Part shown: piece after piece, positions 5,426-62,736 of the stretch | How the letters are laid out: every line of letters begins with the position of its first letter | Numbering within the stretch: the first letter of the stretch is position 1 | From: Bradyrhizobium algeriense | GTDB taxonomy: Bacteria; Pseudomonadota; Alphaproteobacteria; Rhizobiales; Xanthobacteraceae | Direction of reading: 5' to 3' | Assembly (NCBI RefSeq): GCF_036924595.1 | Contig: NZ_JAZHRV010000001.1 | Location: forward strand, 6,138,001-6,202,000 | DNA length: 64,000 nucleotides | The notes under the pieces: generated by a model | What the model was told of the DNA's origin: nothing | What the model saw: only the letters and a program-made list of their open reading frames with translations | The model's database searches: none | Position numbers and translations under genes: made by a program

Positions 5426-5455
5426 CATCGGACTGCTGAGCGTTCAGCAGGATAT

Positions 5456-6783: not shown

Positions 6784-6858
6784 GATCAGCTACCACTCCC
6801 TACATTGGCCGGTCGGGCATGGTGCATGGACCATCGCGACTTCAGCCGCACACGTCGC

Positions 6859-7284: not shown

Positions 7285-7320
7285 AGGATTACCTTCTCCT
7301 GAATGATCGGTGCTGCCCAC

Positions 7321-11557: not shown

Positions 11558-12039
11558 GATATGAGCTTCGACAGGAAGGCAACAATTTCATTCACGTGGA
11601 GACGGGTCAGTCTGCAGGCTATGTTACCCCTCTGGAAAACGGCCGGGGGTTTAGTGTGCATCGCGATCTGACGGAAATTAACGAGCGCGATCAGATCGGC
11701 GTTGTCAAATCCATCCAAGAGGCGTTGCCTAAACTTAGCTATTACTATTTGAAGCACCTTCCGAAGTGGGTGCGCAGAAGAGACGGCCAATTTGGTGGGG
11801 ACGCTGGGTACGTAATGTGTACGGTCTATTCCAAATGGTCTTTTTATGGGGTGTTTGAAGTAAAGCAGCAAGAAGACGGACAATGGGTTGCCACTCGCTG
11901 TACGGAAAAACTGCTTCGCGACGGCGAAGAAGTAACCTTCCCCACGGCGGAAGTAGCGCGCTACGTGGTCGATCGGCACAAGCGTGATGGTATTGCAAAT
12001 TATCCGGCGCTCGATGACGGCTACTCGTGGGGAAATTAA
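11554..12039 (+). CDS. Hypothetical protein coupled to the replication module
   Basis: This 161-aa soluble protein has no domain I recognise. It is rich in aromatic residues (LSYYYLKHLPKWVRR, YSKWSFYGVFEV) and charged, with no signal peptide or membrane segment. Its ATG overlaps the stop of the preceding gene by four bases. It may belong to the element's replication or regulatory module; function unknown. Confidence 0.6.
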   Translation: MRYELRQEGNNFIHVETGQSAGYVTPLENGRGFSVHRDLTEINERDQIGVVKSIQEALPKLSYYYLKHLPKWVRRRDGQFGGDAGYVMCTVYSKWSFYGVFEVKQQEDGQWVATRCTEKLLRDGEEVTFPTAEVARYVVDRHKRDGIANYPALDDGYSWGN

Positions 12040-12172
12040 CCCGGTGGGACCGACTGGATACCAAACCAACGGTAACAAGGTTTCATTCCTTAGCTTTGCG
12101 CAACTTGGTCGTGCAGCGCCAGTCTGCTAAATCAATACAATATGATTGGGACAGAATGGCGCGGAGAATGGC

Positions 12173-12889
12173 ATGAAACAATTTCACGGTTCGCTCGATG
12201 AGTTGAAGGCAGCGGTGGCCGCATGTCACCCGAATGGGGAATGGACCGCCGCTCCCACGAACGGTTTGCAGGCCTTCAGAGCAAAAACCGGAGAGGTATT
12301 GAATTGGTGGCCCACAAAAGGAACACTTCAGTTCCAAGGCAAAAACCAAGATGTGTTTCGAGATAAACTCGCTACGGCTTTGGGTGCACCTGCACCGGTC
12401 ATTGCTGTCGCGCCCACGGCAAATGCGAAGATTTTTGTAGTGCATGGCCATGACCGCGATGCTCGCGATCAACTTGAACTCGTGCTGATGCGCCTCGGCC
12501 TTCAGCCGTTCATTTTGCAGAACTCGGATGGCGGCAGCAAAACCATCATCGAGGCGCTAGAGCAGCACATCTACCAAGAGGCGGCGTTCGGCATCATTTT
12601 GCTCACTCCTGACGACTACGGGTACGTCAAGACGGGCACGGACGCAGATCGACAGCCGCGTGCCCGACAGAACGTGATACTTGAGATGGGGATGATCATG
12701 GCAGCGCTCGGACGAAGCCGCATGGTCATCCTGAAGAAGGGAGCTTTAGAGCTTCCCTCGGATGCTGGGGGCATTTTGTATATTGAGTTCAACGACCACG
12801 TTCGCGAAATCACTCCTAAATTGGCGCAGCGACTTCAGAGCGCTGGTTTCGATATCGATCCACACAAGATCGCTGCTGCTTCCGCGTGA
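12173..12889 (+). CDS. TIR-like nucleotide-binding protein (CAP12/PCTIR type)
   Basis: This 238-aa protein has two parts. Residues 1-70 form a small domain (SLDELKAAVAACHPNGEW; GEVLNWWPTKGTLQFQGK) that I have seen at the N-terminus of TIR-like predicted nucleotide-binding proteins. Residues ~85-215 are a TIR_2-type domain: KIFVVHGHDRDARDQLELVL, GGSKTIIEALE, IILLTPDDYG, RARQNVILEMGMIMAALGRS and LPSDAGGILYI. Glu171 in ILEMGM sits where TIR NAD hydrolases carry the catalytic Glu. Such proteins deplete NAD+ in abortive anti-phage defence when activated; activator and activity here are inferred. The ATG at 12173 is preferred over the TTG at 12146 because GCGGAG lies six bases upstream. No cyclase, Argonaute or STING partner is adjacent. 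Confidence 0.8.
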   Translation: MKQFHGSLDELKAAVAACHPNGEWTAAPTNGLQAFRAKTGEVLNWWPTKGTLQFQGKNQDVFRDKLATALGAPAPVIAVAPTANAKIFVVHGHDRDARDQLELVLMRLGLQPFILQNSDGGSKTIIEALEQHIYQEAAFGIILLTPDDYGYVKTGTDADRQPRARQNVILEMGMIMAALGRSRMVILKKGALELPSDAGGILYIEFNDHVREITPKLAQRLQSAGFDIDPHKIAAASA

Positions 12890-13034
12890 TCACACCATGA
12901 CAGCGAACGTTAGCGTAAGCAGATTGCAGCCTGGCCGGCGCACCGGTGACCGTCCCATTGCTGTAGTTCTGGCAAGTGCAAAGGTAGAACGTCCTCTCCG
13001 TGCGATACTTGGCCGTTTGCAGGCGTCTGAGCTA

Positions 13035-13110
13035 GGTCCGTTCGTCCCCCGATAACAGACGTTCGAGGACGGGGGGTGCTATGTCCGTTTCGTGCCAACA
13101 ACGGACTCAC
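13035..13110. repeat. Interspersed repeat remnant, copy 1
   Basis: Contains GGTCCGTTCGTCCCCCGATA, then ATGTCCGTTTCGTGCCAACA and ACGGACTCAC. The same words recur in the other copies (GTCCGTTTCGTGCCAATTCC, GGACTCATGCACCGCAGC). It is non-coding and degenerate. Confidence 0.6.
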
Positions 13111-43879: not shown

Positions 43880-45742
43880 TTACGTGTCTCTAATTAATTG
43901 AGAACGAGTCCCGGAAATCGTTTCGACCAGCAGTGCCCGATCAAGAAATGTGTTTCTAGCTTCGCAGCTTGTTTCGGAAACTAGGACGCAAGCATGGCAA
44001 GCTGCGCCCAATAGCGACCGCTCGTCTCCCGAAACGGATGGATCGTGATCAGCGCAAATCGGATCGTTCGAACACAGTCTAAAGCGGTCGCAAGCACTGA
44101 GAAGAAGTTGTGGGATCTGCTTCGCGATTTCTGTGAGCCCGCCGAGGGTTCCTTGAGCGCCTGCGCTGGCCGTGTAGATTAGGATCCCGAATCTGTCGCT
44201 CCGATCGGTATCATTACCAGCGATTGCATACACGCGTTCCTTCAACGAACTCAGGGGATAGCCGCACTCCAACGCGATTTCTTCCATGAGTGCGTGAGAT
44301 AGCGAATGAAGTAGAACGTAGGGCATTCCCGGAAATAGGTTTTTAACGTTATTCCTGGCTGCATGGTTAGCAGCACCGGCAACCAACATTTTGCTGCGAG
44401 CGATTACTGTATCTCGCTGTAGCCAAGCGCGAATGACGTTCGGCTTCAGCGTCAAAAACACTCCCTCGCCCAGTTGCTCCATTGCTGGAAGCCAGTCAGC
44501 ATTTTCTGAAAGCGGGGCTCCATCGACGGCCAACCGTACGTCTTCAAGCATTTGTTCGGCAAAGGTTGGTGCTGGCTCGAGCCGGGTAAAGCCATAAAGA
44601 CAGGTAACAGCCCGCAAGCGATGGACGGCGACAATCGACTGGAGAATCGGCTCATTGCTCCATGACAAACACCGATCCATTGCCTCAACGTTCAAAGTTT
44701 CGGCGAACAGGGGTTCGCCTGGAGCGTCGGCGCCTATCAGTTGATCGCCGCTGTTCAAAAGGTCGTATTCTGCGATCTTGGGATCCTGAATGGCTTCGCG
44801 CATCACCGCGTCGCGCAATTGCACAACGCGCGCATAAATCTCGTCGTTGCTGTAGCTGCCAATCGACGCGCCGATTTCCGGAACGTTCTTAAGGACGCCT
44901 ATGAAGGCTGGATCGGTTGCAGATTGGAGGCTCGCCCAGTGCTTTCGAATTGCTTGGCTAAGCGCATCCTCCAGAATTGGCAGTGAAATAAGCGTCACAG
45001 CTTGGGGAAAATAGGTATTTGTTGCCGAACGCGAAAGAAAATGAAGCTGCTCTGTGCAGCCGGCTTCTGCCGAATCGAGCCAAGGCCGATGCCCCTTACA
45101 GGTTCCGAGAAAGCCTGGTTTGAACGCGTCGGCAAGCGACACGCTGGGTCGCTCGCAGAGGCACCCGATCCGTATGTTTGCCGGGTCTGCACTTGTGCCC
45201 TGTTCTTCAATCCACATTGCCTCGTCGCACTTCGTCCCACGGTGGACGAGCCACTTCCAATCGATATCCTGTATGTGACCATCTTTGCATGCGCCGACGA
45301 AACGGATAGGTGTCACATCGATCTTTTTCCCGTCGTCCCTCTGAAATTTCTTACGATTTCCGGCTGCATCGAGCTCAGTCCAACGAACAAGCCGGCGGCG
45401 CCGCGGATTGGTAGTGCCAGATTCTACTATTCCCTCACAGGTGAACCACGTGGGAAAAACCCGAACAGCGATGCCTGCCGGATCCGGCTCGTTGCGATTC
45501 TCGCGAGCGATGGGCGGCGTGCGCAACTGCACTGGCTTTCCTGGCTCCCATCTTCCCGTTTGAGAAAGGACGGTCTGAAGGAGAGCCGTGAGTCGCGGTT
45601 CGCTTATTGATTTGAATGCAGCCTTGCTACCATCCCAATGGTCTAGGCCCGCAATCACCACGGACCGCGTTGGCAAATCCATCATTGCGCCTGGACCAAA
45701 GGAGTTGAAGAGTTGACTGAGACTTTGTTTGGGCGGGCTCAT
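43880..45742 (-). CDS. drmB: DISARM protein DrmB (DUF1998)
   Basis: This 620-aa protein matches DrmB, a core part of the DISARM anti-phage system that works with the DrmA helicase to block incoming DNA. The start SQLFNSFGPGAMMDLPTRSV and the early VIAGLDHW are typical. The DUF1998 region lies in the C-terminal third (PGMPYVLLHSLSHALMEEIA; YPLSSLKERVYAI; GILIYTASAGAQGTLGGLTE). A Cys-rich end (CSNDPICADHDP; GAACHACVLVSETSCEARN) probably binds zinc. The length is normal. Its ATG overlaps the drmA stop (ATGA), so the two are made together. It is the last gene of the operon; no drmC follows. Confidence 0.92.
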   Translation of the reverse strand: MSPPKQSLSQLFNSFGPGAMMDLPTRSVVIAGLDHWDGSKAAFKSISEPRLTALLQTVLSQTGRWEPGKPVQLRTPPIARENRNEPDPAGIAVRVFPTWFTCEGIVESGTTNPRRRRLVRWTELDAAGNRKKFQRDDGKKIDVTPIRFVGACKDGHIQDIDWKWLVHRGTKCDEAMWIEEQGTSADPANIRIGCLCERPSVSLADAFKPGFLGTCKGHRPWLDSAEAGCTEQLHFLSRSATNTYFPQAVTLISLPILEDALSQAIRKHWASLQSATDPAFIGVLKNVPEIGASIGSYSNDEIYARVVQLRDAVMREAIQDPKIAEYDLLNSGDQLIGADAPGEPLFAETLNVEAMDRCLSWSNEPILQSIVAVHRLRAVTCLYGFTRLEPAPTFAEQMLEDVRLAVDGAPLSENADWLPAMEQLGEGVFLTLKPNVIRAWLQRDTVIARSKMLVAGAANHAARNNVKNLFPGMPYVLLHSLSHALMEEIALECGYPLSSLKERVYAIAGNDTDRSDRFGILIYTASAGAQGTLGGLTEIAKQIPQLLLSACDRFRLCSNDPICADHDPSVSGDERSLLGAACHACVLVSETSCEARNTFLDRALLVETISGTRSQLIRDT

Positions 45743-48700
45743 TGATCAGTGTCCCTTTCGTTGAGAGACCTGCCCAAGGGGTCGCAGGTTTTGAGGAACA
45801 CAGAGTATTCGACGTCGCGCATTGAGCGAGCTGCAGCAAATTGCTGATGCTCCGGATCAAGAAGTTCTGATGCCAAATCCAAAGGGTATTGGAGGAGCCG
45901 GCGCTCGGCTCCTGGGCCATCATACGTGAAGCCGCCACCTGTGGCAGTTTGGTTCTCGGCAACATCCGCCCACATTTCGAACAACTGCGTTGCGCGAGAG
46001 GCGACCCTTTCGATTGATTCGTTGTCCAGTCCGGCGGACTGTGCGCGTCTGCGAAGAGTGGCAACAACCAGCGCGCGGACGGCTGGGTGGTCATCGAGGC
46101 GTCTAACCGCGTCAGATGGCGAAAGGGCGGGATCGAAATGACGCGCTGCCGCAACCACTACCGCTGCAAGCGCCCGGTCCAGCGCGCGGGGTGAGAAAGG
46201 CGTTACACTCGTTGCTTCAACCGCTCGATAAAAAGAGCCGTGAAAAGCGCGGAATTGCTCATAGTGGGTGCGGTCCCGCGCTTTGTGAAGATTCAGAAGC
46301 GTGATCACTAGGCCGGGCCTGTTGCTGGCGCGTCCCACGCGACTCGTTGCTTGAATGTACTCAGCGGCCGTTTTGGGTTGTCCTTGGACAAGCATGAGGC
46401 CAAGACGGCTGATATCTAGGCCCACTGAGATCATGTTTGTCGCGAGTGCAACGTCGATACTTTCATCGTCAACTTGCGCAGTGGCGTCATGCAAAGGTCT
46501 GCCTAGACGCTCCTTCGCAAATGCGACGTCGTCAGTTGAAACGCGGGAGGTCAATTCTAACGGAAGGCGCATGGCGCGATTAGCAAAGGGTTTGCCGGAT
46601 GGGGCAATTCGGTAACGTTTATCGCCGTAGCTGGCTACGTGCTCTCGAATTTCGTCCTCGACGATCCGCCGCGCCCCGCCAAGTTCTCGGAGCGCGTTAA
46701 AATACGCGAGGATAGTCAAATAGGGGTCTGCTGGATCCTCGCTATTGGGCGTCGCTTCGCTGAGTGCCTGAGCACCAGAGAGCATGGTTTGCATCGTCCG
46801 CAGAAAAAGCAGCTTGGGACCGCGGCCCTGGCTGGCGATGCCAACATACAGGCGAGCCGGCTGTTCGGTTGAAGGTACCGTCTTTGCGAAAAAACTGTCC
46901 TTTCGGCTAATTCCCGGCGGAGGGAACACAGCAGTGCGGTCACGATCGAATAAGGAGCAGATTTGCTTTTGCGCCCGCCGCACTGTCGCCGTCGATGCCA
47001 CGATCTTTGGATGGACACTTTTACCGCTGACCTGTCTCGACGAAAGAAGGTCAATCGCGGCTTCATACAGCCCAGCCACGGTGCCAAGTGGGCCGGAGAT
47101 TAGATGAAGCTCGTCTTGGATAATCAAATCGGGCGGATCCAACCGGTGCCCGTTACCCAGTGGGCGCCCTTGGCCCGGCTCCGCCGCGCCGTAGAAGCCA
47201 CGATCCGGCTCAAAACGATCGACGTGGCCGAAAAATGCTCCGCTTTGACCCACCCATGGAAGGGCAGCGAATTTATCAATCGTAGCTATTAGGAACGCCG
47301 GCAGGCGACGATAGATTGGCTCGTCGACCACGATGATTGGTAGCGGACGATCACGAGTGAACTCACATTCAGCGTTTTCACATTTGAGAAGCAGGTTTTG
47401 CGGGGTCTGTTTGTTGGGTGTGAAATAAAAGCTCTCCGGCTTAAACGCCTCTCCGCACCATGGACAAGCCTTCAAGGGCACCGGAGATTTTTCGCTTTTT
47501 GGTCTTCGCTGATAACGGCCGAGCCAAGTCGTTGCAGCGTCTTTGTCGCTAGAATTGCGAGGTTTCAAATTGTTGGGCGAAGCCGCGCCTCCAACCCAAA
47601 GTCCAATTTCAATTGGCCAGTCACCAAGCGTCTTTCTGCCTTCGGCAGTTCGGGTTCGCAGTAGCTCTAGTGCACATATCAATCCGGCGGCACGCGATAG
47701 CTGGTCGAGCGTCAGGAGCCTTAGCGTGTAGCGCATGATCACGCTAACCCCCGCCCCGAGCATGCCCGGGCCGCGGATTCGGCGAAGCGAAATGGCATAT
47801 GCGGCGAGTCCGAGGTACGCCTCTGTCTTGCCACCGCCTGTCGGGAAAAATAGGAGGTCTACAATATCTCGCTCTAGGCTTGCCTTGTCTGTCATACCGG
47901 CAAGGTTGAGCAATATGAAGGCGAGTTGGAATGGTCGCCATTTCGGCGGATCTATCGCCTCTGGAGATATTTTTCGCAGTGCCGCTTCGCGCTGGCGGTT
48001 GGCCATGGCCATGGCGGTATTCATGATTGCGAATGCTTCTCGCGCGAGGGGATCGTTCTTTAGAACATTGATCCCACCTTCGATGCGTTGCCGCGCGGCA
48101 TCCATGTTATCGATCAGTGTGCCTGCCATATCTTTTCGCCTTGGGGCGAGCCCGTCCATGAGCGCCTGCTGGCTGCCTTGCCAGTCCGCGTAGAGTTTTG
48201 GCAGCGAATCGAGTGCAGCACCAAGTGCAGCAGGTCCGCTCGACGCAGCTTTCGCGAGTGCCTCGATTCCAAACTCTACATCGATATTTTCGTTTGCAAC
48301 GACACGTTCAACTTCCTCGGTTGGCAAAAAATCGGTCCAAACGCGGGTGACCGGAAGGGGTGTCTTGGCATCGTCGAAACGTTCGTCCCAACCGCCAGAC
48401 GTATTGCGTCCCACCGCATACTCGCGGACGTCGCTGTAATGTAAATCGCTGAGACGATGATCGAAATCGTCGGATTGATATGTTGAAAAATCATATCGCG
48501 GAGCGAACCCGCTCGCGCATTTCAGCTCCAGTCGAGCTTGAAATGCATATGCGATGTCCGTGTAAGGCGCTCGGGTGCGCTTTCGCCGATTGACCAGAAA
48601 TATAGTTACCACCCGAACGCGCTCGACGACCCCCTCGGGCGTTTTCTGATCGAGGACGCGTTGGTGAATTGAGAGTTCAAGTCCGCCGCCGGGACGTTGA

Positions 48701-49263
48701 GGTGCGGCGCTACCGGGAACTGGAATTCCTGATCGATTGCGCGTTATGTCGACTGGAAGTATGGCCTCGCCCGGAATTCGTATCCACTGCAGCTTCTCCG
48801 GCCGCTCGGGTTTAGGTTCACCTTTCTTCGTTTCGTCAGGGATCAGTAGCGAGTCCGGCAGCGGCGGCTCGGTTTTATAGTCGCCCCAAGTAGCACGCAG
48901 TGTCACCTCCCGAACGGTTTCCGGAAGCATCACTGTGATCGCGATTGACGATGGCAGAAAGCGATCCCGTGGGGGTTGGTCTGTCGGCTCCTTCTCTTCG
49001 GCATCGCCGTCTAGCGAAGAATCCAATGTCTCAGAAGCAAGAAGATCGTCTCCGGTCGCTTCGGCGACCTCTTCGGCATCGTCAGCCGCGGGCGGGACAC
49101 CATCGTATGCGGGCACGATAAAACCACCGAGATACCAACGGGACGGCTTCTCATCGTTGAGCACTTCGTGCGCGAGATCCGGATCAAGGTCCGGATGCGG
49201 ACCGATCAGATCACGCCGCAGGAGGTCCACCAGACCCCTTCGGATATCCACAGATTCGGTCAT
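45739..49263 (-). CDS. drmA: DISARM helicase DrmA
   Basis: This 1174-aa superfamily 2 helicase is of the DrmA type. The N-terminal part (DIRRGLVDLLRRDLIGPHPD; EKPSRWYLGGFIVPAYDGVP) is characteristic of DrmA. Helicase motifs: Walker A FFPTGGGKTEAYLGLAAY (~470), Walker B/DExH-like IIQDELHLISGPLG (~717), motif III VASTATVRRA, and motifs V-VI MISVGLDISRLGLM and EYIQATSRVGRA (~975). A putative zinc patch ACPWCGEAFKPES lies between the motifs. The start at 49263 overlaps the PIN-gene stop by ATGA; longer readings to 49488 are not needed. With DrmB it forms the DISARM core that engages phage DNA. Confidence 0.93.
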   Translation of the reverse strand: MTESVDIRRGLVDLLRRDLIGPHPDLDPDLAHEVLNDEKPSRWYLGGFIVPAYDGVPPAADDAEEVAEATGDDLLASETLDSSLDGDAEEKEPTDQPPRDRFLPSSIAITVMLPETVREVTLRATWGDYKTEPPLPDSLLIPDETKKGEPKPERPEKLQWIRIPGEAILPVDITRNRSGIPVPGSAAPQRPGGGLELSIHQRVLDQKTPEGVVERVRVVTIFLVNRRKRTRAPYTDIAYAFQARLELKCASGFAPRYDFSTYQSDDFDHRLSDLHYSDVREYAVGRNTSGGWDERFDDAKTPLPVTRVWTDFLPTEEVERVVANENIDVEFGIEALAKAASSGPAALGAALDSLPKLYADWQGSQQALMDGLAPRRKDMAGTLIDNMDAARQRIEGGINVLKNDPLAREAFAIMNTAMAMANRQREAALRKISPEAIDPPKWRPFQLAFILLNLAGMTDKASLERDIVDLLFFPTGGGKTEAYLGLAAYAISLRRIRGPGMLGAGVSVIMRYTLRLLTLDQLSRAAGLICALELLRTRTAEGRKTLGDWPIEIGLWVGGAASPNNLKPRNSSDKDAATTWLGRYQRRPKSEKSPVPLKACPWCGEAFKPESFYFTPNKQTPQNLLLKCENAECEFTRDRPLPIIVVDEPIYRRLPAFLIATIDKFAALPWVGQSGAFFGHVDRFEPDRGFYGAAEPGQGRPLGNGHRLDPPDLIIQDELHLISGPLGTVAGLYEAAIDLLSSRQVSGKSVHPKIVASTATVRRAQKQICSLFDRDRTAVFPPPGISRKDSFFAKTVPSTEQPARLYVGIASQGRGPKLLFLRTMQTMLSGAQALSEATPNSEDPADPYLTILAYFNALRELGGARRIVEDEIREHVASYGDKRYRIAPSGKPFANRAMRLPLELTSRVSTDDVAFAKERLGRPLHDATAQVDDESIDVALATNMISVGLDISRLGLMLVQGQPKTAAEYIQATSRVGRASNRPGLVITLLNLHKARDRTHYEQFRAFHGSFYRAVEATSVTPFSPRALDRALAAVVVAAARHFDPALSPSDAVRRLDDHPAVRALVVATLRRRAQSAGLDNESIERVASRATQLFEMWADVAENQTATGGGFTYDGPGAERRLLQYPLDLASELLDPEHQQFAAARSMRDVEYSVFLKTCDPLGRSLNERDTDQ

Positions 49264-49775
49264 GGCCCTTTTTTCTCCAGCAAAACCAGTTGCGTAAGAG
49301 TTTGCTCCAGCCACTTTTGCGTATGAGCCTGTCGCAGCTCGGTTTTGGGACGGTGACCGACGTCGGAGAGCAATCGCTCGAGCGAAACGAGCCGCTCGCG
49401 AAATCCCAGCCGAATGCCAACCCTTAGACTGGCTTTGTCTGGCCCACAGAGTACCCAATCGTCCGGACGCGTAATTGCATGCGACCAAAGCATCAGTTCA
49501 CCCGCGTCCAAAAAACGCAATTGCTCGGTTTCCAGCAAAGCGGCGGCGCGCTGTGCGTCGGTCACCGAATGAACTGCTTTCAAGGTATCCCGTAGCATTT
49601 TTCTATCAATTTGCTGTTCGCGAGTACGGCGCTGAAGGCCGGTCTGTGTCTCGATCTCACACATTTCGACCGTCTCGACAGCATATCCACTGGTCAACGC
49701 CTTCCACGACGAAACTCGCCAGCACTCAATGATGACGTTCGTGTCCACCAAAATGGGTCCACGGTGCCGCGACAT
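49260..49775 (-). CDS. PIN-domain nuclease-like protein inside the DISARM operon
   Basis: This 171-aa protein starts with the PIN signature PILVDTNVIIECW (Asp11). Further acidic residues at PIN-like positions are seen in EMCEIETQTG, DAGELMLWSH and WVLCGPDKASL, followed by a helical C-terminus. PIN proteins are metal-dependent ribonucleases, often toxins. Its start is 7 bp after the XRE/ImmA gene stop, with GAGGCG upstream, and its stop overlaps the drmA start. It is therefore built into the operon between a regulator/protease and the helicase. PIN proteins are not part of described DISARM cores as I know them. Whether it acts as toxin, effector or RNA processor is open. Confidence 0.75.
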   Translation of the reverse strand: MSRHRGPILVDTNVIIECWRVSSWKALTSGYAVETVEMCEIETQTGLQRRTREQQIDRKMLRDTLKAVHSVTDAQRAAALLETEQLRFLDAGELMLWSHAITRPDDWVLCGPDKASLRVGIRLGFRERLVSLERLLSDVGHRPKTELRQAHTQKWLEQTLTQLVLLEKKGP

Positions 49776-49782
49776 CGACGCC

Positions 49783-50892
49783 TCACAGATCGTAGGGCGC
49801 GTCGACGCCGTGAGCTCTGAAAAGATCGGCAAGCTCGTCGATCGCGAGGCCGAGTAAATATGAAACCCGTCGGACTGCGACGCGGCCTTCGTCAACCGCG
49901 CGGGCAATTACTGAGATGAAGGTCTTCGAGAACAGCGGCGGCAAAGGCTCCTTTTCGGGCTTCGTCCTGCCATTGTTGCGCAGTTTGTCCTCCCGAATTG
50001 CTGCGGCAGTGGATCTGTCGAGACGCTTCAAGTCGACGAGCCGCCATCGCAGTGCCGAGGAACTCACGCGAAGCTCATCTGCTGCCGCGTTAAGCCTCTT
50101 AATGAGATCGTCACCCTTGAGCCCTGACCAGTCCCCGTATCGATCGAGAACCGACGCCGGCATGAGGAGCGCGGAAGCAAAATTATCGGCAAGCTGTTCA
50201 ACCCGGGTTCGTCGCTTTGGTGCGACGTCTTCGACATGCTCTGGCGGCATCGCATCCCAGGTGAGGATGTGGAAGAGCTCGTGAGCGAGATCGAAATGAC
50301 GGCGTCCAGGTATCTCGCGGCGGTTAATCAGGACGACGTCTAGCTCCGGCAATCTGCAAGCAGCGCCTGAAATCCCATTGATCGCATCGACCATCAATAC
50401 AAGAATTCCGAGCTCGCGCTCCATTGTGTCAGCGAGCGTGATTGCAGGAATCTCACCGAGCTTGAATTCTAAAGCGAAGCGTTCGCCGGCCGCTGCCGCA
50501 TTGTCGAAGCTCGATTGACTAGTTAGTGCAAGCGTACGGCGCAGAAGAGGTGTTTCGCGCCCAATTTGCGGGGCTAAGGTACGGAAGGCAGCAATGAATC
50601 GGCCTGCATCGACTTCGTAGTCCGCGAGCGCGCGTCCAACGAGTCCGCTTTGGCGCCAGGAGAATCGGCCTTCACCGACGAGCAGGAACGGATCCGTGAA
50701 ATAGTCGAGTTGAACGCCAAACAGTTCCACTGCCCGAACCAATTCCTCCGCTGTTACGCGACGGTCGCCAGTCTCGATTGCGGAGAGGGTCTGGCGATCC
50801 TTGAATCCAAAACGCTGCGCAAGGTCCTCCTGCGAGAACCCTTGCTTCTCTCGCAGTGCTCGAATTCGGATTCCAATCGTGGCGGTGCTCAT
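49783..50892 (-). CDS. XRE-family regulator with ImmA/IrrE metallopeptidase domain
   Basis: This 369-aa protein joins an N-terminal Cro/C1-type HTH (IGIRIRALREKQGFSQEDLA; DRQTLSAIETGDRRVTAEEL) to a COG2856-type zinc peptidase with HELFH (His204, Glu205, His208) in RRHFDLAHELFHILTW, and a later ADNFASALLMP helix that supplies the third ligand region. Such proteins act as repressors that are cleaved or that cleave partners upon DNA damage or phage entry. GAGGGAGATTGTT before the ATG at 50892 fixes the start; the frame extends further upstream without a start signal. It is followed by the coupled PIN, drmA and drmB genes, and probably controls them. Confidence 0.88.
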   Translation of the reverse strand: MSTATIGIRIRALREKQGFSQEDLAQRFGFKDRQTLSAIETGDRRVTAEELVRAVELFGVQLDYFTDPFLLVGEGRFSWRQSGLVGRALADYEVDAGRFIAAFRTLAPQIGRETPLLRRTLALTSQSSFDNAAAAGERFALEFKLGEIPAITLADTMERELGILVLMVDAINGISGAACRLPELDVVLINRREIPGRRHFDLAHELFHILTWDAMPPEHVEDVAPKRRTRVEQLADNFASALLMPASVLDRYGDWSGLKGDDLIKRLNAAADELRVSSSALRWRLVDLKRLDRSTAAAIREDKLRNNGRTKPEKEPLPPLFSKTFISVIARAVDEGRVAVRRVSYLLGLAIDELADLFRAHGVDAPYDL

Positions 50893-51385
50893 AACAATCT
50901 CCCTCGCCACACGATAATCTTGCAAAACTAATTTTGCAAGAAATGATTGCAATTCGAGATATGAAATATGGGACGTTCTATAAATCCGGGGGTCGAATTT
51001 AACTAAAGACAGCAATTTCAATGAGATAGAGCCTCGGAAGCGCCTTCGGAAGCCAGTAGCCGGGCAACTGTTTGCTTCAGTCGATTGGCGCGTTCTTGTA
51101 CTTTGGAGCAACCGACATTCGGCGAGCATGTGCTGTGGTCTACTCGGTCCATTTGGCAGTTGTGCCGGGTCCATTGACCGTCTGAGGGGTGATTTCAGCC
51201 CCGCCAATATTCGGTCGCCGCCAATAGCATCCTTTCTTACAAGTTCATCGAGGACAAAAGCCGGCATGGGCCCGAACGGGACAAGTCACGCGTTGGGAAA
51301 TAACTGCAACTCAGGGATGAGCTTTTCTTCGATCATCTCCCGCCTGAACGGGCGCTTATCGACATTCGTCTCCTTCGCAATCCAA
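50893..51385. other. 490-bp gap inside the DISARM cluster
   Basis: This is the only long gap in the operon, between the drmMI stop and the XRE/ImmA gene. On the minus strand an open frame without a ribosome binding site runs through most of it, and a short reading, MIEEKLIPELQLFPNA, begins just after drmMI. A separate promoter for the XRE-PIN-drmA-drmB half is likely here. TTGCAAAACTAATTTTGCAA at 50921-50940 is a near-perfect palindrome 29 bp upstream of the XRE start, a good operator candidate for that protein. Confidence 0.6.
50921..50940. promoter_or_regulatory. Palindromic operator candidate upstream of the XRE/ImmA gene
   Basis: TTGCAAAACTAATTTTGCAA: the arms TTGCAAAA and TTTTGCAA are perfect inverted repeats of 8 bp with a 4-base centre. 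It lies 29 bp before the ATG of the Cro/C1-type protein, the usual place for autorepression. Binding is inferred. Confidence 0.65.
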
Positions 51386-54300
51386 CTATTCCGCCTCGTA
51401 CTCTTCGCCGTCTTCGCTGTCGTTAGCAATGAGGGCGCCATTGGCGCTTACCAAGCCGAGACGAACCTCCTCGGTGTGCCGCTCGACATTGAGCGCGAGA
51501 AGACGCGCCAGAACTTCATCCCGAAAACCTGAGGACCAAAACAGTCGACCTTGATAGGCGTGGTCGTCTTCAGTCTGTTCATTTAGAAAGACAGGTTGTG
51601 CTTGCTCTGCGAGATCGTGCCAGCCGTAAGCGCGAAGCGTCGTGCGATCCATCTTCGCATGCAGTTCGCGTAGGTGTTGGACGTCTGAACTGCCTTCGGT
51701 TGCATCATGGAAACGATTATATATCCGCGTCGTGCCCTCATTGCGAGCGATCATTAGCGTCGCGCGGTGTGAATGGTAGGCCATGCCGGCGGACTCCAGA
51801 TCCGACAGATCCTTGAGCTCAGAGGGAAACGGAAATGTTTCAAAACAGTCGGATGGAGCGTAACGTAAATCGTCCTTCATAGAAGACGAAAAAAATCGCG
51901 CCCATACTTCGTGTATGCGGGACTGAAGCAGAGCAAAAGATGAGAAGTTAGAAAAAGAGAATGCAATGACTGTAGACGCGAATATTCCTTGGTTCGTGCG
52001 AAGGGCCATTTGAAGATGCGGCGAAGTTTGTGGAGCCACGAGGACTAAAGGAAGCCCTTCAATCGCGATATACAGCCCTTTTTGCGGTTCACCGTGCTTC
52101 CACCAATTTTGCCGCCGGTGTTCTCGGTTGTCTGTGTCTCTAACGGGTTTAACCAGTCGGTTCACGGCAGAAAAAAGCGCGCCTCCTCGACGCTCGGCAT
52201 CCTCGAGGTTTAAATCCCCAAAATCAATGACGTAGCGGCGGTGCATCTGATGAACATCGTTCGCAACGTCTTCACCGGAAGTATACGGCTTAACAAACTC
52301 GGACAATGTTGCATCGTTGGTGAGAATCTCGTTCATGTCGCGCAGCGATAGTGTTTCGCCCTTCTTCGCACGCGCGTCATCAAACAAAAAACCCGCGCCT
52401 ACTGGGTTGGTTCCTTGGAAAGCCGTTCTAGAATTTTTCTTTAGGAGCGCGGGGTTGGTATCGAAATCTCCTTCGACTAAAAAGGCCGATACTCGCCTCA
52501 CATTCTTACCATTCAAGGTGGCCTCACCCTTGTTGCTTTTTGTGATGTGAATAACGGAAACGACCACTGCCGCCTCGCCGGGCCACTGTAAGCGTTTCAC
52601 CGCCCGACTAATTCGTCCGCCTGCAGCGAGGATCGCAGTCAAGCCGGTCGTACGAGTGTCGCCTTGTCCTACTGTGTTCGTTGCAATGAGCCCGCACGCC
52701 CCCCTTTGACGGATGAGACCGAAAGTGCGGCGAAAGAAATGAGCAACAAGATCGGAGTTTCCATGCGTGCCGGCATGCAGCACCTTCAACCAATCGAGGA
52801 AGCCATCACGGTTAGATGTGGTTGTCGTGTTTTTGCCCGCAAAGGGGGGGTTCCCCACAATGGCATCGAACCCCGGATTGTCTCTCGTAAAAACTTCTGG
52901 AAACTCCAGTTCCCAGTGGAATGGCCGGATGGGGTGTGCGCCCTGCGTGAGCGTCGCGGCAACGGTAGCCAACCTTTCGGTGCGATCAGTTTCCGAGCTA
53001 AGGCCCGTAAGTAACTTAGCAACCTCGACCCTCTTTTCCTCACGCTTCCGCGGCTTGTCTGCCGAAAAGAATGCGGCGACGACCGCGTCACCATATAGGC
53101 GAGGTCCCTCTAGCTTTTTTTCGACGATACGATGACGCGCCTCTTGGATTGCGCGCGTGACGTCGTCCGAGGCAAATTGGATATCGCGGCGTCCAATCGC
53201 GACCTCGTTGACTCGCTCTCGTAAGAGGCCTCGCAGTAGCGGCGCGCTATCTTTCGATAAGTCCCAATGAGCTGCCTCGATTTGTTCCCGCGTTAGGCCA
53301 ATGAGGCTATTGCCCGATTTGACCGCGTGATCGAGAAACGTAAATTCGTGTTCGCGGGCCAGCGTGGCAAGCCACAGCGATAGTCGGGCGAGGTCAACCG
53401 CGAGTGGATTTTTGTCCACTCCATAGAGTGAGCGTTGGGCAACTAGGCGGCAGGCATGCAGCGCCTCATCCTCGTCGGGGGGGATAGCTGGCTTAAGATC
53501 CTTATTCTTGCCCCATGCCTTCTCTAGTCGTTCTCCAATTTGCCGACAGGCCTCAACCAAGAAGGCCCCCGACCCGCAAGCCGGATCGCAGACCTTGATA
53601 TCCAACACCTGATCAGGCGTCGCGTCCTCGCCTATGCGCTCGAAGGCTGGTTCCAGTGCGTAACGGACTATCGGCTCAGTGAGGGTGCGCGGCGTATAGT
53701 GGCTCCCTGATTGGCGGCGCTCATCTGTTGGCTGCAGGATTGGACTGCCCGCTTGAACCACGTGGCCTCCCGGCGACCCCCGTGGATCGGAGATAGCGGC
53801 AAGTGCCTCTGTAAGTGTTCCAGCGTCTTTAGCATTTTTGATGGCTTCGAGTTTTCGGCCTGTGGGTGATACGCCCCATTCCTTGAGAAGCTTTTGGCGA
53901 TCTGGGGCCTTTTTCTGCCCAAGGAATAGAATGTCGACGAATACCGGAAGGTTTTTTTCGCCTTTAACGGCAATCATGGGCCCGGAGGCGCGCTGAATGG
54001 TAAAGCCCATGATCGTTTCATAGACCGAGCCAATCTGCTCAACATCGAGAGATCGGTAGGAGAGGCGCTCCCGCACGCGCTCACCGGTGAACGAACGCGC
54101 CTCAACCGTCATCAGCCCTTCAAGGATCCGAAGGACGGCGCCATCGCGGATTGGAAGCACTTTTGCGGCCGCCCGCGGCTCACCTTCGTTCCGGCTTTCG
54201 AGAAACGGAAAGACATTTGTATCGAACAATTTGCCGCCACGGGCGGTAATCCATCCGGATGGATGACCGCCGTGGACCAGCCGGAATAGCGCCAGCAGTC

Positions 54301-55321
54301 GTCCCCAACCGCCCACACGCTCGTCCATTGTATCCGGATTGAGTGCTCGATCCTCAATGAGCCGGGCGTAAAGGCCGCGGACGGAGTAGCTGGATTCATA
54401 GATATCGACGGCTTCGCCCACCCTCTGCGTTGGCATCAATTCGCGGTCTTCGGCGTAGAGCAGGAACACCAGCCGCATTAATGTCGTGAGGAGCCCTTCA
54501 TAGAGATGATGAGGGCGCGTCGCAGCGAGTTGCTCGATGCGTTCAGGATCGGCTGCGTGAAACGCGCGCAATAGTTCATGCAGGGCGCCGAGAACCTGTT
54601 CGGCCAACTGCGCAGATACTTTATTTTGGGCCTCGCGCGACCGAGCAAGCAGTTTCGGAAGTCGCCGGCCTTCTGGCTCGGTGAAAAGCCGGGCATGGCC
54701 AAGAATAAGTTTTAGGCCACCAAGCATCGCGCGACCCGCGACGGTCCCGAGGCTCCTAAGCGGAAAGTAAAGCCATCCGGATGTCTCTCCGCGCGGTGCG
54801 TAGATAAGCCACAAATGAGATCGATCTACAAGCACTCCGATCGTGACGCCGCTTTCGCGGAGGAGGCGTTCGAATTGATGATGCGGCGTTGCATCCCAAC
54901 GATCGAGGACGCCTCGCTTGTCGGCATCAAGGGTGGTGTGCAGTTTTACAAGAATCTGGAACGCGCCTGGATCAGCACCGCCTAGATCCCTGACCGCCCA
55001 GTCGGGCGAAAGCAGAACTTCGTGCTCTGATATATAACTCGCAATATTTTCGGGCAGGCTAGGGCCGCCCGGCGCGCCAGCGACGTACCGCGCCTCCCAG
55101 CCCAGGATTCGCTCGAAGAATAGCCATGGGTCCGGAAGCGCAGGATCTTCGGTGTCGGTCGTTAGCAGTTCCGCAACTGAAAGCGTGTCCACGGCCGTTT
55201 GGCGCGCCGGCGTCAGGTCCTCTTCACGTATGACGTTGGGACCGATAACTAGCCCGACTGGCCCAATATGGTAGAGCCATTCAAGCTGCGGATCGATCGC
55301 CCCCTCAAACATTATTGTCAT
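51386..55321 (-). CDS. drmMI: DISARM adenine-specific DNA methyltransferase DrmMI
   Basis: This 1311-aa N6-adenine methyltransferase is of the class 1 DISARM type. It should mark host DNA so that the DrmAB machinery ignores it. The methyltransferase core lies in the middle: SAM motif I in KVCDPACGSGAFLVEACRQI (~577), then LYGVDKNPLAVDLARLSLWL, and catalytic NPPF in FDAIVGNPPFAGKNTTTTSN (~822). The long N-terminal region (~1-540) is as in Eco57I/type IIG-like enzymes and includes VEQIGSVYETIMGFTI and RRQSGSHYTPRTLTEPIVRY. The C-terminus is probably the target-recognition part. The ATG at 55321 overlaps the drmD stop (ATGA). All motifs are intact. Confidence 0.9.
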   Translation of the reverse strand: MTIMFEGAIDPQLEWLYHIGPVGLVIGPNVIREEDLTPARQTAVDTLSVAELLTTDTEDPALPDPWLFFERILGWEARYVAGAPGGPSLPENIASYISEHEVLLSPDWAVRDLGGADPGAFQILVKLHTTLDADKRGVLDRWDATPHHQFERLLRESGVTIGVLVDRSHLWLIYAPRGETSGWLYFPLRSLGTVAGRAMLGGLKLILGHARLFTEPEGRRLPKLLARSREAQNKVSAQLAEQVLGALHELLRAFHAADPERIEQLAATRPHHLYEGLLTTLMRLVFLLYAEDRELMPTQRVGEAVDIYESSYSVRGLYARLIEDRALNPDTMDERVGGWGRLLALFRLVHGGHPSGWITARGGKLFDTNVFPFLESRNEGEPRAAAKVLPIRDGAVLRILEGLMTVEARSFTGERVRERLSYRSLDVEQIGSVYETIMGFTIQRASGPMIAVKGEKNLPVFVDILFLGQKKAPDRQKLLKEWGVSPTGRKLEAIKNAKDAGTLTEALAAISDPRGSPGGHVVQAGSPILQPTDERRQSGSHYTPRTLTEPIVRYALEPAFERIGEDATPDQVLDIKVCDPACGSGAFLVEACRQIGERLEKAWGKNKDLKPAIPPDEDEALHACRLVAQRSLYGVDKNPLAVDLARLSLWLATLAREHEFTFLDHAVKSGNSLIGLTREQIEAAHWDLSKDSAPLLRGLLRERVNEVAIGRRDIQFASDDVTRAIQEARHRIVEKKLEGPRLYGDAVVAAFFSADKPRKREEKRVEVAKLLTGLSSETDRTERLATVAATLTQGAHPIRPFHWELEFPEVFTRDNPGFDAIVGNPPFAGKNTTTTSNRDGFLDWLKVLHAGTHGNSDLVAHFFRRTFGLIRQRGACGLIATNTVGQGDTRTTGLTAILAAGGRISRAVKRLQWPGEAAVVVSVIHITKSNKGEATLNGKNVRRVSAFLVEGDFDTNPALLKKNSRTAFQGTNPVGAGFLFDDARAKKGETLSLRDMNEILTNDATLSEFVKPYTSGEDVANDVHQMHRRYVIDFGDLNLEDAERRGGALFSAVNRLVKPVRDTDNREHRRQNWWKHGEPQKGLYIAIEGLPLVLVAPQTSPHLQMALRTNQGIFASTVIAFSFSNFSSFALLQSRIHEVWARFFSSSMKDDLRYAPSDCFETFPFPSELKDLSDLESAGMAYHSHRATLMIARNEGTTRIYNRFHDATEGSSDVQHLRELHAKMDRTTLRAYGWHDLAEQAQPVFLNEQTEDDHAYQGRLFWSSGFRDEVLARLLALNVERHTEEVRLGLVSANGALIANDSEDGEEYEAE

Positions 55322-58300
55322 GATTGTTTCGGCCAAAGGTAAACGATGCCGATGGGCTCAAGCCGCTCTGCGCGGATCTTGTACGATTCGATGACGCGAC
55401 TGGGCTCTTCGACGATTTCACGTTCGAGGCTTTCGAGGCGCCTCTGCCAATGCCGTCGGTCGGCTTCGCGCTGACGGCGTTCAGCCGGGTCGGATAGATC
55501 CAATTCAAATTGAGCCGTGTCCTTCACTGCTGCGCCCCTTCGAATTCTCTCGCGCTGGGCTGAGAGGAGGTCTTTCAGGGCTCTAGATTCGCGGACTCCG
55601 ATTTCAGTCAGGTCTTTCCTCGCAACGTCCGCGGCGGTCTTCGCACGCTGCTCGAGGGCAGGGCGAAGATCGGTCAGATCTTTTTGAACCCCAGCGAGAA
55701 GGCGGTCGACGATGTCTTTAGGGGGTACGGTTGCTGCTTTAAGTGCTTCCTCAAGCTCACCGAGCGTGGTTTGGTCGCCACTTCGGCCGAAGGCTCGCAA
55801 TCCTTGACCCGCCCGCGCGGGCTCGCTCCACAACGCCGTGATGGGCAGTATCTCTTCGTGAAGACGAGCTGCCGCGGAGCCGAACATCGCCAAGCGCCCG
55901 ACGAGCACGACGCGAGGTTGCGAACCGGGTCCATAGATCACACTAGCCCGGTTCAAGCCGGCGCGGAAACCGTGTGACACGAATCGAGATAAGAGCCGCC
56001 GCACCAATCGATGTTCGAGATGAACCTGCACGACATCATCTGCGTCCCTCCCATCTGGAAGAACCTGTGCCTCGAACGCTATGGCTCTTACGGGATGCTT
56101 CGCGCGCCATTCTGCGACGTCTCGCGGCTTCGGCGGCCGCCCCTCGCGGAGTTCGTCAAAAACACTATTCCAAGACGAGTCTTTGGCAAAAATTGGAAGC
56201 GCTGGATCGATCCTGAAAGCATCCCCGACCTCTAAGTTTGTAGCAGGTACGAGCGAAACTCCGTCGCGTGCGAGTGCTGTTTCAAAAACAGCTCGCAGAT
56301 CTTCAGATTTGATGCCGACTCGCTTTCTAGCCTGCTCAAGATCGCGATCCAAATCTTCAAGTTCTTTGGAAAGACGTGCCAGTCGCTTATCTTCTTCGTC
56401 GGCCATCTCGAAGCGCGCTCGCTTTGCAGCGGCACTTCCATCCTCCGCCTCGATCTCGCTCGCAAGCAAGGCCGCGGAACGTCGCGAAATGCCACCGCTG
56501 GTGAGCTTCCCATGGATTCGCTCCGCCAGCACTTGTCCGGAAGACCCTAGCTGGCTGCGAATAGTTTCGGTCTTGCGAACCAGTGCCGATAGAACTTGAT
56601 CCTCGGCTCTCTGCGCATACACGAAGTAACGACAGGTCACCGTGTCCGCTGGCTGAAGCTTACGATCGATCCGGCCATTGCGCTGTTCGAGTCGAGAAGG
56701 ATTCCAGGGCAGATCAAAGTGAATAAGATCGTGGCATCGTGTTTGGAGATTGATACCCTCGCGGGCCGCATCGGTACAAAGGAGCAAGCGGAGTGGCGTC
56801 TTTGCAGGATCCGCGTTGAATGCGAGCTTTACCTCCTCGCGGCGCCGTTGTCCCGTAATGCCGGTAAAGGTTGCAATCCGTTTGGGACCGAGATCGGTGT
56901 CGGCGAAAGCTTCATTGAGACGCTTTTCAAGCCAAAGTCGCGTGTCCTCCCACTCCGTGAAGATAATGAGGCGCCGCTCGTTCCACCGGCCTGGCGAAGC
57001 CATCATGTTCTTTTCGATCCAATCAACAAGCCAAAGCACACGCTCGTCGGGTTTGCGTTCGTTGCGTCGCGCAATCGCGAGCATGGCCTCTACGCGGGTT
57101 ATTGCTTCGTCGAAGCCGCGCGTCGTAAATCTGACGCCGGCGGTAGCGGCCTCAGCGACGTCCTCCTCCTGCTTTTGTATCAGATCGAGGAGGCTATTCT
57201 CGTCGGCACTTTCATCGGTTTCGAGTTCGACTGGCGTGTCCGCCATAAGAGATGCTGCAGTTTGTGGCGCTGACTGATCGGCGCGATCACGCTGCCGTTT
57301 AAGCGTCTCAAGGTGCTTCCGGAGGCTTCTGGAAAAAGCCGGGATAGACGACAGCAATCTCTGCTGTAGACCAGACAAAACAAAGCGTGCGTTGGCGAGA
57401 GGTGTACCCTGTAACCCTGTTTCGCACCATTCTCGATAATCATCGAGAAGGCTCGAAAGCACCAGCTCAGGAGCGTCCTCGGGAAGACCTGACAAAATGA
57501 TCGGTTCGATCTTTCGATTTGGAAATTTCGACACATTCAGTTTAATCAAGTCGCTCTTTAGACGCCGCACCATAACGGGTTCCAGCTCTGCGGGCTCCAC
57601 GGGAAATCCACGCGTGAAACGCTGCGGATCCAGTATTTCCAGGAGGGACGAAAAGCTGTTTGAGTGCCCGTTATGTGGCGTAGCCGATAGAAATAGTCGA
57701 TGCTCAAATCGCTCGGCCAGACTTCGAATAGCCCGCGTAAACTGGCTATCTGTCGCATATGCAACGCCGCTCGCGGGGGCTGCATGATGAGCTTCGTCGA
57801 GGATAAGCATTGCTCGCGGACGAAAAGTACCAAAGAGCTGACTTAATCCATCAGAGTATGTTTCGTCTGCAATCAGGTTATGAGATATGATGAAGCGAGA
57901 TCCAACCGCCCACGGATTTGCCGAAAATCCGTAATTTCGTCGGACCGTCGCCAAATAGTCTCGGTCGATAATGGTAAATCCCAAACCGAATTTTTGAGCG
58001 AGTTCGTCCTGCCATTGCGAGGTCATCGCCGCAGGGCTGGAAACTACGACGTAGTCTACACGCCTGCGAAGCAGCATTTCCCGCAGCACCAGACCTGCCT
58101 CAACCGTTTTACCCAGACCAACGTCATCGGCAATTAACAGATTTACACGGGGAAGCTTGAGCGCCTTGGAGAGCGGCAAAAGCTGATACGGGTCAAGTCT
58201 GATGCCAGCGCGGAATGGTGCCTGAAACAAACCTCGATCCGCCGCGGTAGCTGATCTCCATGTTACCGCTCTAAGATGAGCGGAGAACACTTCTGGATCG

Positions 58301-58539
58301 TCAGTTCCGCTTTGTCCGATCTGGCTCCAAACTTCGTCTTCCACGCGTCGGACATCGATTTCTGCGTCGACAACAGCTTGAAATCGCTCTCCCTGCGCGT
58401 CATCGTCTATGCACGCCATACTGAAGGATTTCGGAGCAGCGGCATCGCCGCTTTCTCGGACGCCTTCTACGACCCACTCCCGACCTCGAAGCCGGATCAA
58501 CTCTCCTACTTCAGGCTCAAGGCGCGATTCCCTAGGCAT
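55318..58539 (-). CDS. drmD: DISARM SNF2-like helicase DrmD
   Basis: This 1073-aa SWI2/SNF2 superfamily 2 ATPase matches class 1 DISARM DrmD. Motifs in order: Q-like GIRLDPYQLLPLSKALKLP, Walker A LIADDVGLGKTVEAGLVLRE (~145), DEAH box in RAMLILDEAHHAAPASGVAY (~248), SAT in LFLSATPHNGHSNSFSSLLE, and the C-terminal helicase half with RLIIFTEWEDTRLWLEKRLN, GINLQTRCHDLIHFDLPWNP and LEQRNGRIDRKLQ. Long charged helices near the end (LDRDLEQARKRVG) may form a coiled coil. I place the start at the ATG at 58539, preceded by GGGAAAAGGGAAC; a GTG at 58560 is possible. It heads the operon and is coupled to drmMI. Confidence 0.9.
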   Translation of the reverse strand: MPRESRLEPEVGELIRLRGREWVVEGVRESGDAAAPKSFSMACIDDDAQGERFQAVVDAEIDVRRVEDEVWSQIGQSGTDDPEVFSAHLRAVTWRSATAADRGLFQAPFRAGIRLDPYQLLPLSKALKLPRVNLLIADDVGLGKTVEAGLVLREMLLRRRVDYVVVSSPAAMTSQWQDELAQKFGLGFTIIDRDYLATVRRNYGFSANPWAVGSRFIISHNLIADETYSDGLSQLFGTFRPRAMLILDEAHHAAPASGVAYATDSQFTRAIRSLAERFEHRLFLSATPHNGHSNSFSSLLEILDPQRFTRGFPVEPAELEPVMVRRLKSDLIKLNVSKFPNRKIEPIILSGLPEDAPELVLSSLLDDYREWCETGLQGTPLANARFVLSGLQQRLLSSIPAFSRSLRKHLETLKRQRDRADQSAPQTAASLMADTPVELETDESADENSLLDLIQKQEEDVAEAATAGVRFTTRGFDEAITRVEAMLAIARRNERKPDERVLWLVDWIEKNMMASPGRWNERRLIIFTEWEDTRLWLEKRLNEAFADTDLGPKRIATFTGITGQRRREEVKLAFNADPAKTPLRLLLCTDAAREGINLQTRCHDLIHFDLPWNPSRLEQRNGRIDRKLQPADTVTCRYFVYAQRAEDQVLSALVRKTETIRSQLGSSGQVLAERIHGKLTSGGISRRSAALLASEIEAEDGSAAAKRARFEMADEEDKRLARLSKELEDLDRDLEQARKRVGIKSEDLRAVFETALARDGVSLVPATNLEVGDAFRIDPALPIFAKDSSWNSVFDELREGRPPKPRDVAEWRAKHPVRAIAFEAQVLPDGRDADDVVQVHLEHRLVRRLLSRFVSHGFRAGLNRASVIYGPGSQPRVVLVGRLAMFGSAAARLHEEILPITALWSEPARAGQGLRAFGRSGDQTTLGELEEALKAATVPPKDIVDRLLAGVQKDLTDLRPALEQRAKTAADVARKDLTEIGVRESRALKDLLSAQRERIRRGAAVKDTAQFELDLSDPAERRQREADRRHWQRRLESLEREIVEEPSRVIESYKIRAERLEPIGIVYLWPKQS

Positions 58540-58560
58540 GTTCCCTTTTCCCACCGCCAC

Positions 58561-62658: not shown

Positions 62659-62736
<78 letters not shown>

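Follow-up and report, generated by a model that had tools for sequence, protein, structure and literature searches.

A predicted Xre-COG2856/PIN module between drmMI and drmA in a drmC-less DISARM operon of Bradyrhizobium algeriense

Genes of the operon and their known relatives

We analyzed a 64,000-nucleotide stretch of the Bradyrhizobium algeriense genome (contig NZ_JAZHRV010000001.1; hereafter, the window), which carries a DISARM defense operon of six genes, namely drmD, drmMI, a gene for a fused XRE-ImmA/IrrE protein, a gene for a predicted PIN-fold nuclease, drmA, and drmB. These genes follow one another in this order on the minus strand (Table 1), which is an arrangement described in a first-pass annotation of the window and borne out by profile matches and by the positions of the open reading frames (ORFs). 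The sequence likewise confirms the ATGA overlaps at the drmD/drmMI, PIN/drmA, and drmA/drmB junctions and the 7-bp gap (49776-49782) between the XRE and PIN genes. The gene order is that of DISARM class 1, and the four proteins that define this class are all present: DrmD, DrmA, and DrmB score above the curated cut-offs, and DrmMI gives a strong PADLOC match. The locus differs from class 1 in that it (i) lacks drmC, (ii) contains the XRE-ImmA and PIN genes between drmMI and drmA, and (iii) has a palindrome and promoter-like site of its own for the second half of the operon. Judged by its sequence, it is a class-1-type DISARM without drmC that holds an Xre-COG2856/PIN module between drmMI and drmA.

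Three gene starts required a choice. For drmD, we chose the GTG at 58560, while the ATG at 58539, preferred in the first-pass annotation, is also possible; for drmMI, the ATG at 55321 overlaps the drmD stop codon, and a TTG at 55336 opens the ORF. For the XRE-ImmA gene, the ATG at 50892 is the most likely start, and not the upstream ATG at 51267 that had been assigned to it, because the resulting 369 residues equal the length of its relatives; a region of 493 bp is therefore left after drmMI.

Table 1. Features of the DISARM operon and of the surrounding window
Feature	Position	Strand	Evidence
drmD, SNF2-like helicase	55318..58560	-	NCBIfam DISARM_DrmD (NF038317) 992.7 bits, cut-off 610
drmMI, MmeI-like adenine methyltransferase	51386..55321	-	PADLOC DrmMI 1163.6 bits; Pfam MmeI, Eco57I domains
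Presumed control region between drmMI and XRE, 493 bp	50893..51385	-	Sequence; accessory slot in relatives
Palindromic presumed operator, TCTTGC-N12-GCAAGA	50918..50941	.	Sequence; conserved in relatives
XRE-ImmA/IrrE (COG2856) fused repressor/metallopeptidase, 369 aa	49783..50892	-	Pfam HTH_3 and Peptidase_M78
PIN-fold nuclease (predicted), 171 aa	49260..49775	-	AlphaFold model, predicted local distance difference test (pLDDT) 91.0, predicted template modeling score (pTM) 0.87; Foldseek and VIA matches to VapC/PIN
drmA, helicase, 1174 aa	45739..49263	-	NCBIfam DISARM_DrmAS (NF038325) 1084.5 bits, cut-off 950
drmB, MZB/DUF1998-type protein	43880..45742	-	NCBIfam DrmB_fam (NF038324) 505.1 bits, cut-off 240
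Tyrosine integrase	5617-6783		

The XRE-ImmA protein unites a helix-turn-helix (HTH) domain and a Zn-peptidase domain of the HExxH type in one chain, with the motif HELFH at residues 204-208, and both HExxH and E232 are kept in 68/68 of the relatives counted. This is the architecture of the Xre-COG2856/PIN class of Makarova 2009 (PMC2701414), where COG2856-Xre fusions with PIN proteins are predicted to be toxin-antitoxin systems. In that class, too, the fused HTH and Zn-peptidase gene stands directly before a PIN gene, also in stand-alone form, and the neighbor here is a PIN-fold partner with an acidic active site according to its predicted fold. The window departs from the class in that its PIN protein lacks a Pfam or NCBIfam match and in that the pair is joined to drmA.

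Three further systems invite comparison. In RosmerTA (PMC10440598), ImmA-type RmrA antitoxins act with diverse RmrT toxins in phage defense, and PIN-like partners of the ImmA node are reported; our XRE-ImmA protein matches PADLOC RmrA (E 1.4e-19, in a library without a curated cut-off), whereas the PIN protein matches no PADLOC model, RmrT toxins being diverse, and the pair is embedded in DISARM. CapH+CapP (PMC13373217) likewise place an XRE repressor and an ImmA-type peptidase before immune genes, and our protein matches PADLOC capP (E 7e-16); CapH and CapP are, however, encoded by separate genes, whereas the window has a single fused protein, inside the operon and paired with PIN. In the same source, CapH+CapP control CBASS and other immune operons, and CapW/BrxR is grouped with CapH+CapP among regulators of neighboring immune operons, of which DISARM is one. 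It also describes vapKSC, in which an immune regulator module is linked to a VapC-like PIN toxin, but with CapK/CapS-like Kinase/STAS regulators in place of an HTH-peptidase and as a separate three-gene operon. An XRE-ImmA/PIN pair inside DISARM is not described in the accessible text of the literature searched, which covered few subscription papers and not the original DISARM paper; PIN, ImmA, COG2856, and XRE are absent as whole words from the accessible part of PMC12458937, and the regulation of DISARM is not treated in the accessible parts of the DISARM literature examined.

The 171-residue protein is identified as PIN by its modeled fold and acidic active site, as the first-pass annotation had proposed; since sequence searches gave no assignment, it is the predicted fold that settles its identity. 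Neither the protein nor a family profile matched anything in Pfam, NCBIfam, PADLOC, or the PDB sequences. One of 20 diverse family members matched Pfam PIN (E 0.0021), a profile of these 20 members found only a designed protein in the PDB (E 0.19), and an hhalign comparison with one TIGR00305 PIN protein was not significant. Its acidic residues D11, E42, D90, E93, and D113 are invariant in a 20-member alignment that reaches down to 35% identity. In the larger alignment, 64 of 68 rows have a PIN protein of at least 150 residues; among these, E42, D90, and E93 are present in 64/64 and D11 and D113 in 63/64 each.

Distribution and inheritance of the XRE-PIN pair

Genome contigs were scanned with the PIN alignment, and the best 80 of 81 confirmed loci (numbered with the prefix L) were used. 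Among these, drmA lies directly downstream of PIN in 41, five of which (L063-L067) are near-identical Mesorhizobium copies; it is absent in 33, a class that has at least 1 kb of downstream sequence and holds the pair or a remnant; and the contig ends too soon in 6. An XRE gene directly precedes PIN in 39/41, 30/33, and 6/6 of these groups, respectively. The exceptions are three loci near a contig end (L035, L069, and L076), a 36-residue fragment (L080), and L043, the only DISARM-linked PIN without XRE in the upstream sequence covered, whose PIN has lost the N-terminal region around the catalytic D11. One of the 33, L075, is a DISARM remnant in which a cut PIN runs into a piece of drmB. Because drmA is missing from these 33/80 loci, of which 30 have XRE before PIN, the pair behaves as an autonomous two-gene unit that DISARM shares. 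Occurrence in places without a tie to drmA, which the first-pass annotation had set as evidence against its reading, is thus half borne out. No general conserved partner of the stand-alone pairs was found; L026, L036, L038, and L080 share two large proteins, encoded just before XRE in the first three (by crude ORF calling), and in L036 genes for a TrwB-type coupling protein and a TrwC-type relaxase (3707-8762) directly precede the stand-alone pair, which is a mobile-element context. Three plasmids carry the DISARM-linked order; in one of them, the annotation breaks drmD into pieces, and in another, an insertion sequence splits drmMI. Relatives of PIN were not found in the viral contigs or phages searched with it; a search with XRE did find a viral contig (L141, 3992-5679, IMG/VR) with the XRE-ImmA and PIN pair alone.

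In DrmA surveys at three taxonomic levels (thresholds 1e-50, 1e-150, and 1e-200, respectively), a match was present in 9/385 genomes at the level of the class, 11/397 at that of the order, and 6/398 at that of the phylum. Together, these are 23 different genomes; several do not carry a class 1 system (neither drmD nor drmMI observed), and some offer only ~1.5 kb of flanking sequence. An XRE-PIN pair precedes drmA in 7 of the 23.

The spacing and the phylogeny tie the pair closely to drmA. Counting the window, the XRE-PIN gap is 6-7 bp in 37/41 related loci, and PIN and drmA overlap by exactly 4 bp (-4) in 28/41. In a DrmA tree of 55 rows (proteins of at least 900 residues; two duplicate loci and four Mesorhizobium copies left out), XRE-PIN presence needs 5 changes, where shuffled labels need 14.1 on average, and the 39 carriers all belong to one 44-row group (support 91, not starred; a quick tree with long branches), along with five non-carriers (L112, L113, L116, L122, and L129). 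An XRE+PIN tree of 73 rows (XRE of at least 330 residues plus PIN, duplicates out) comprises 41 DISARM-linked pairs, 27 stand-alone pairs with at least 1.5 kb downstream, and 5 near contig ends; here, the label "in DISARM" needs 3 changes, where shuffled labels need 24.0 on average. One clade of 25 pairs, stand-alone or at contig ends, is nested among the DISARM-linked ones, and other stand-alone pairs lie deeper on long branches. Across 30 complete loci, distances correlate between XRE and DrmA (r 0.88), PIN and DrmA (0.78), and XRE and DrmMI (0.78), alongside 0.99 for DrmA and DrmB and 0.91 for DrmA and DrmMI. In several PIN-less relatives, drmMI and drmA are themselves coupled, overlapping by 4 bp in L112, L128, and L129, and also in L113 by its own annotation (65 bp with the start chosen here), while the gap is 170 bp in L122 and 970 bp in L116; the module therefore takes the place of this direct coupling.

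These data bear on the view that the pair is a selfish addiction module that came to lie before drmA but is functionally unconnected to it. Its autonomy, its presence on mobile DNA (the plasmids, the viral contig, and the relaxase and coupling-protein genes of L036), and one module swap, in L034, would suit such a hitchhiker, but the frequent ATGA overlap with drmA, the few gains and losses on the trees, and the promoter-like site of the module, to which no other site found upstream lies nearer to drmA, speak against it, and we regard it as very improbable. The claim of the first-pass annotation that the tight coupling argues against chance insertion is upheld for this locus by the share of PIN genes followed by drmA (41/80), the conserved spacing, and the small number of changes on the XRE+PIN tree. 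Taken by sequence comparison, the Xre-COG2856/PIN pair is a free-standing module of the toxin-antitoxin type that has been built into a DISARM clade without drmC and is inherited largely together with it.

The two genes of the pair decay unequally. PIN has a premature in-frame stop in L024, L040, L049, L070, and the L063-L067 group, whereas none of the XRE matches in the 80 loci has one (in-frame stops being counted, frameshifts apart); in L081, XRE is kept beside a PIN fragment, and the stops near PIN residue 168 in L039, L050, and L051 are natural ends. This one-sided decay, to which the loss of the D11 region in the PIN of L043 adds, fits a toxin and its antitoxin. In the Mesorhizobium copies, three of which equal L063 over 8801-13100 while one differs by 1 base, XRE is intact and in-frame stops interrupt both PIN and drmA.

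The first-pass annotation had further proposed that the XRE-PIN pair replaces or supplements DrmC. The absence of drmC from the locus is confirmed, as the best DrmC_I match in the whole genome reaches 22.6 bits against a cut-off of 133 and lies far from the window. We searched DrmC_I (NF038319) in 49 genomes or records, namely 34 with XRE-PIN DISARM (34 of 49 such loci, after removal of duplicates, copies, and most of the short contigs) and 15 without it. It exceeded the cut-off in 0/34 of the former and in 4/15 of the latter (G487, G399, G295, and G756), which are classical, distant loci; weaker matches in other genomes fall below the cut-off, and many of the assemblies are incomplete. DrmC_I thus stays below the cut-off where XRE-PIN sits, but it exceeds the cut-off in 0/5 of the nearest PIN-less sisters as well (the five non-carriers listed above), which makes the lack of drmC a trait of the DrmA clade that is not creditable to PIN. 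Replacement of DrmC was accordingly rejected as a strict rule. A nuclease in DrmC's place would act with DrmAB on phage nucleic acid; the overlap of PIN with drmA and the absence of DrmC_I above the cut-off from the records with the pair are in keeping with such an effector, whereas the loci that have the pair without drmA and mostly keep its active site, the lack of DrmC in the PIN-less sisters too, and the resemblance of the PIN fold to VapC toxins make it quite unlikely. DrmC is reported to be dispensable and often missing, and the nuclease that serves DISARM in its absence has been called a mystery (PMC9142583).

A palindrome before XRE and a proposed circuit

A palindrome, new here, covers a sigma70-like promoter of the XRE gene. 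In the window, it begins 49 bp 5' of the XRE start; its left half covers a -35-like TTGCAA (50934-50939), and its right half abuts a -10-like TATCGT (50911-50916). The best score within 150 bp upstream of the XRE start, out of 12 bases, is 12 in 35, 11 in 5, and 10 in 1 of the 41 DISARM-linked loci, and it is at least 11 in 21/27 stand-alone and 4/5 contig-end loci; only 1/3650 mononucleotide shuffles reached 11. The DISARM-linked sites (n=41) share the consensus TTGCAA, 17 nt, TATaTn, which is a sigma70-like layout; the second hexamer has its T in 40 and its A in 39 of them, and their alignment reveals a third half-site upstream; in the stand-alone sites, the second hexamer is not common at 70%. 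The site in the window is the only perfect match to the extended pattern in the 8.1-Mb single-contig genome, which has a further 24 with two mismatches, and a reversed control pattern gives the same total, 25. Of five matches in the window, the presumed operator alone has fewer than two mismatches, and none lies before drmD. None of 31 drmD upstream regions (25 with XRE-PIN and 6 without) scores at least 11.

Because the palindrome precedes XRE-PIN-drmA-drmB and not drmD, the module seems to split the operon, and with it DISARM, into a freely expressed, unregulated methylation half (drmD-drmMI) and a regulated restriction half, in which PIN-drmA-drmB lie under the XRE-controlled promoter. The conserved palindrome supports the regulatory role that the first-pass annotation had given to XRE; its proposal that phage sensing releases the DISARM core would apply only to PIN-drmA-drmB, which stand behind the palindrome, and not to drmD-drmMI.

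We think it fairly probable that the autoregulated promoter of the Xre-COG2856/PIN module would now drive PIN-drmA-drmB in this drmC-less DISARM. The drmD and drmMI genes would be expressed from their own promoter, so that the host DNA is methylated throughout, while XRE-ImmA would bind the palindrome over its own promoter and keep itself, the PIN RNase, and the restriction helicase DrmAB low; it would probably also neutralize PIN. Infection or DNA damage might then activate the ImmA peptidase, the signal conceivably being single-stranded DNA (ssDNA) by analogy with CapP and PprI. The activated peptidase would inactivate the XRE repressor/antitoxin; as a result, DrmAB levels would rise, and the PIN RNase would be set free to act as a second layer that arrests growth. 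PprI and CapP are reported to be ssDNA-activated peptidases (PMC10904395, PMC13373217), DrmAB to bind ssDNA (PMC9142583), and cleavage of the repressor has been suggested for the COG2856-Xre/PIN class (PMC2701414). If this holds, the locus would clearly exemplify a toxin-antitoxin module that has lent its own promoter to the control of a larger immune system, and its palindrome, fused repressor-peptidase, and VapC-like nuclease make it a testable circuit.

Several points weigh against this proposal. Repression by XRE, neutralization and toxicity of PIN, cleavage, the trigger, the RNA target, and the rise in DrmAB are steps that we infer, with the ssDNA trigger, the antitoxin role, and the RNA target suggested by analogy; and since XRE and the presumed protease are one protein, either self-cleavage or cleavage of a second repressor must be assumed. 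A sigma70-type scan did not list the promoter of the window on the minus strand, where the -10 element is weak; the best palindrome of L041 lies at -82 and not at about -50, and L073 scores only 10/12. L046 is the sole case of an intact PIN next to a shortened XRE, which lacks its N-terminal part, and is possibly a contig chimera. Compared with the window, L034 is 65-68% identical in DrmA, DrmB, and DrmMI and 56-57% in XRE and PIN, and the module is therefore sometimes swapped; five close DISARM loci do without it, and it is therefore not needed by every DISARM of the clade. Finally, among 27 genomes or records in which the pair stands alone, 6 have DrmA over the cut-off elsewhere, a share that exceeds those of the three DrmA surveys and that may reflect a link in trans. 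All six of these DrmA loci were fetched, and the fetched stretches contain no PIN of this family and no palindrome before drmA. Matches of 11/12 found there lie inside drmA and were discarded as operators in trans, being read by eye as coding sequence for helicase motifs; most secondary operator-like matches in other loci also lie inside drmA.

The position of the palindrome, before XRE-PIN-drmA-drmB and not before drmD-drmMI, would equally suit a control of timing, in which XRE is mainly a homeostatic autorepressor that holds DrmAB back in a newly entered host until the chromosome has been methylated by DrmMI, and PIN is a plain addiction toxin by which the element is retained. C proteins of restriction-modification systems are autorepressors of a comparable kind, and the island that carries the locus looks mobile (see below), with related copies on plasmids. 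Pure DNA-binding autorepression would not, however, need a peptidase site that is kept in every relative counted, and we consider timing control rather unlikely. It is about as doubtful that XRE-ImmA serves as a guard, monitoring DISARM or a trigger such as ssDNA at DrmAB and releasing the RNase upon infection or DISARM failure, with one promoter linking a restriction-like defense to an abortive backup. If it did, sensors of this kind could in general be plugged in at the drmMI-drmA junction, and L143 (below) would be one case.

The variable slot and the surrounding island

The drmMI-XRE interval is a variable slot in the relatives. It holds a ~218-residue orphan protein in 10 loci, two of them duplicates (L005, L008, L015, L022, L025, L030, L031, and L032 are among the carriers), which is a possible new DISARM accessory and which, in L025, has no Pfam or PADLOC match; a second orphan family in 5 loci (L007, L021, L041, L053, and L124); a DUF2188 gene in 8 loci; and, in the XRE-PIN locus of Methylocystis (L111), a protein annotated as phospholipase D family. 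In L116, which lacks XRE-PIN, an orphan similar by eye to the second family directly follows drmMI, ahead of the next gene. For the 493-bp gap of the window, a gene remnant was considered and dropped, as its 25-residue tail matched nothing among the loci collected.

Other genes occupy comparable positions elsewhere. In a Pseudomonadales genome (L143), an unrelated XRE-M78 fusion (9811-10905) lies ~265 bp before drmA; this is apparently an independent recruitment and suggests repeated use of the spot before drmA by such regulators. Genes for a subtilase-family peptidase and an AAA ATPase (9181-12570) stand between drmMI and drmA in L142, a second toxin-antitoxin-like pair (ribbon-helix-helix and TIGR00305 PIN proteins; 240-920) directly precedes drmD in L110, and a Phd-type antitoxin gene precedes drmD in L111.

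In the window, 46 bp of the tRNA-Met 3' end are directly repeated, at 5456-5501 and 62659-62704. Because these repeats flank the region, which also encodes a tyrosine integrase, DISARM is probably the cargo of a 57-kb integrated island, and the integrase would use tRNA-Met. The same stretch encodes a match to a CAP12/Pycsar TIR-domain effector (12146-12889, plus strand) and, divergent from drmD, a GmrSD-type restriction endonuclease that ends in a RAMA domain at its C terminus (58826-61012, plus strand).

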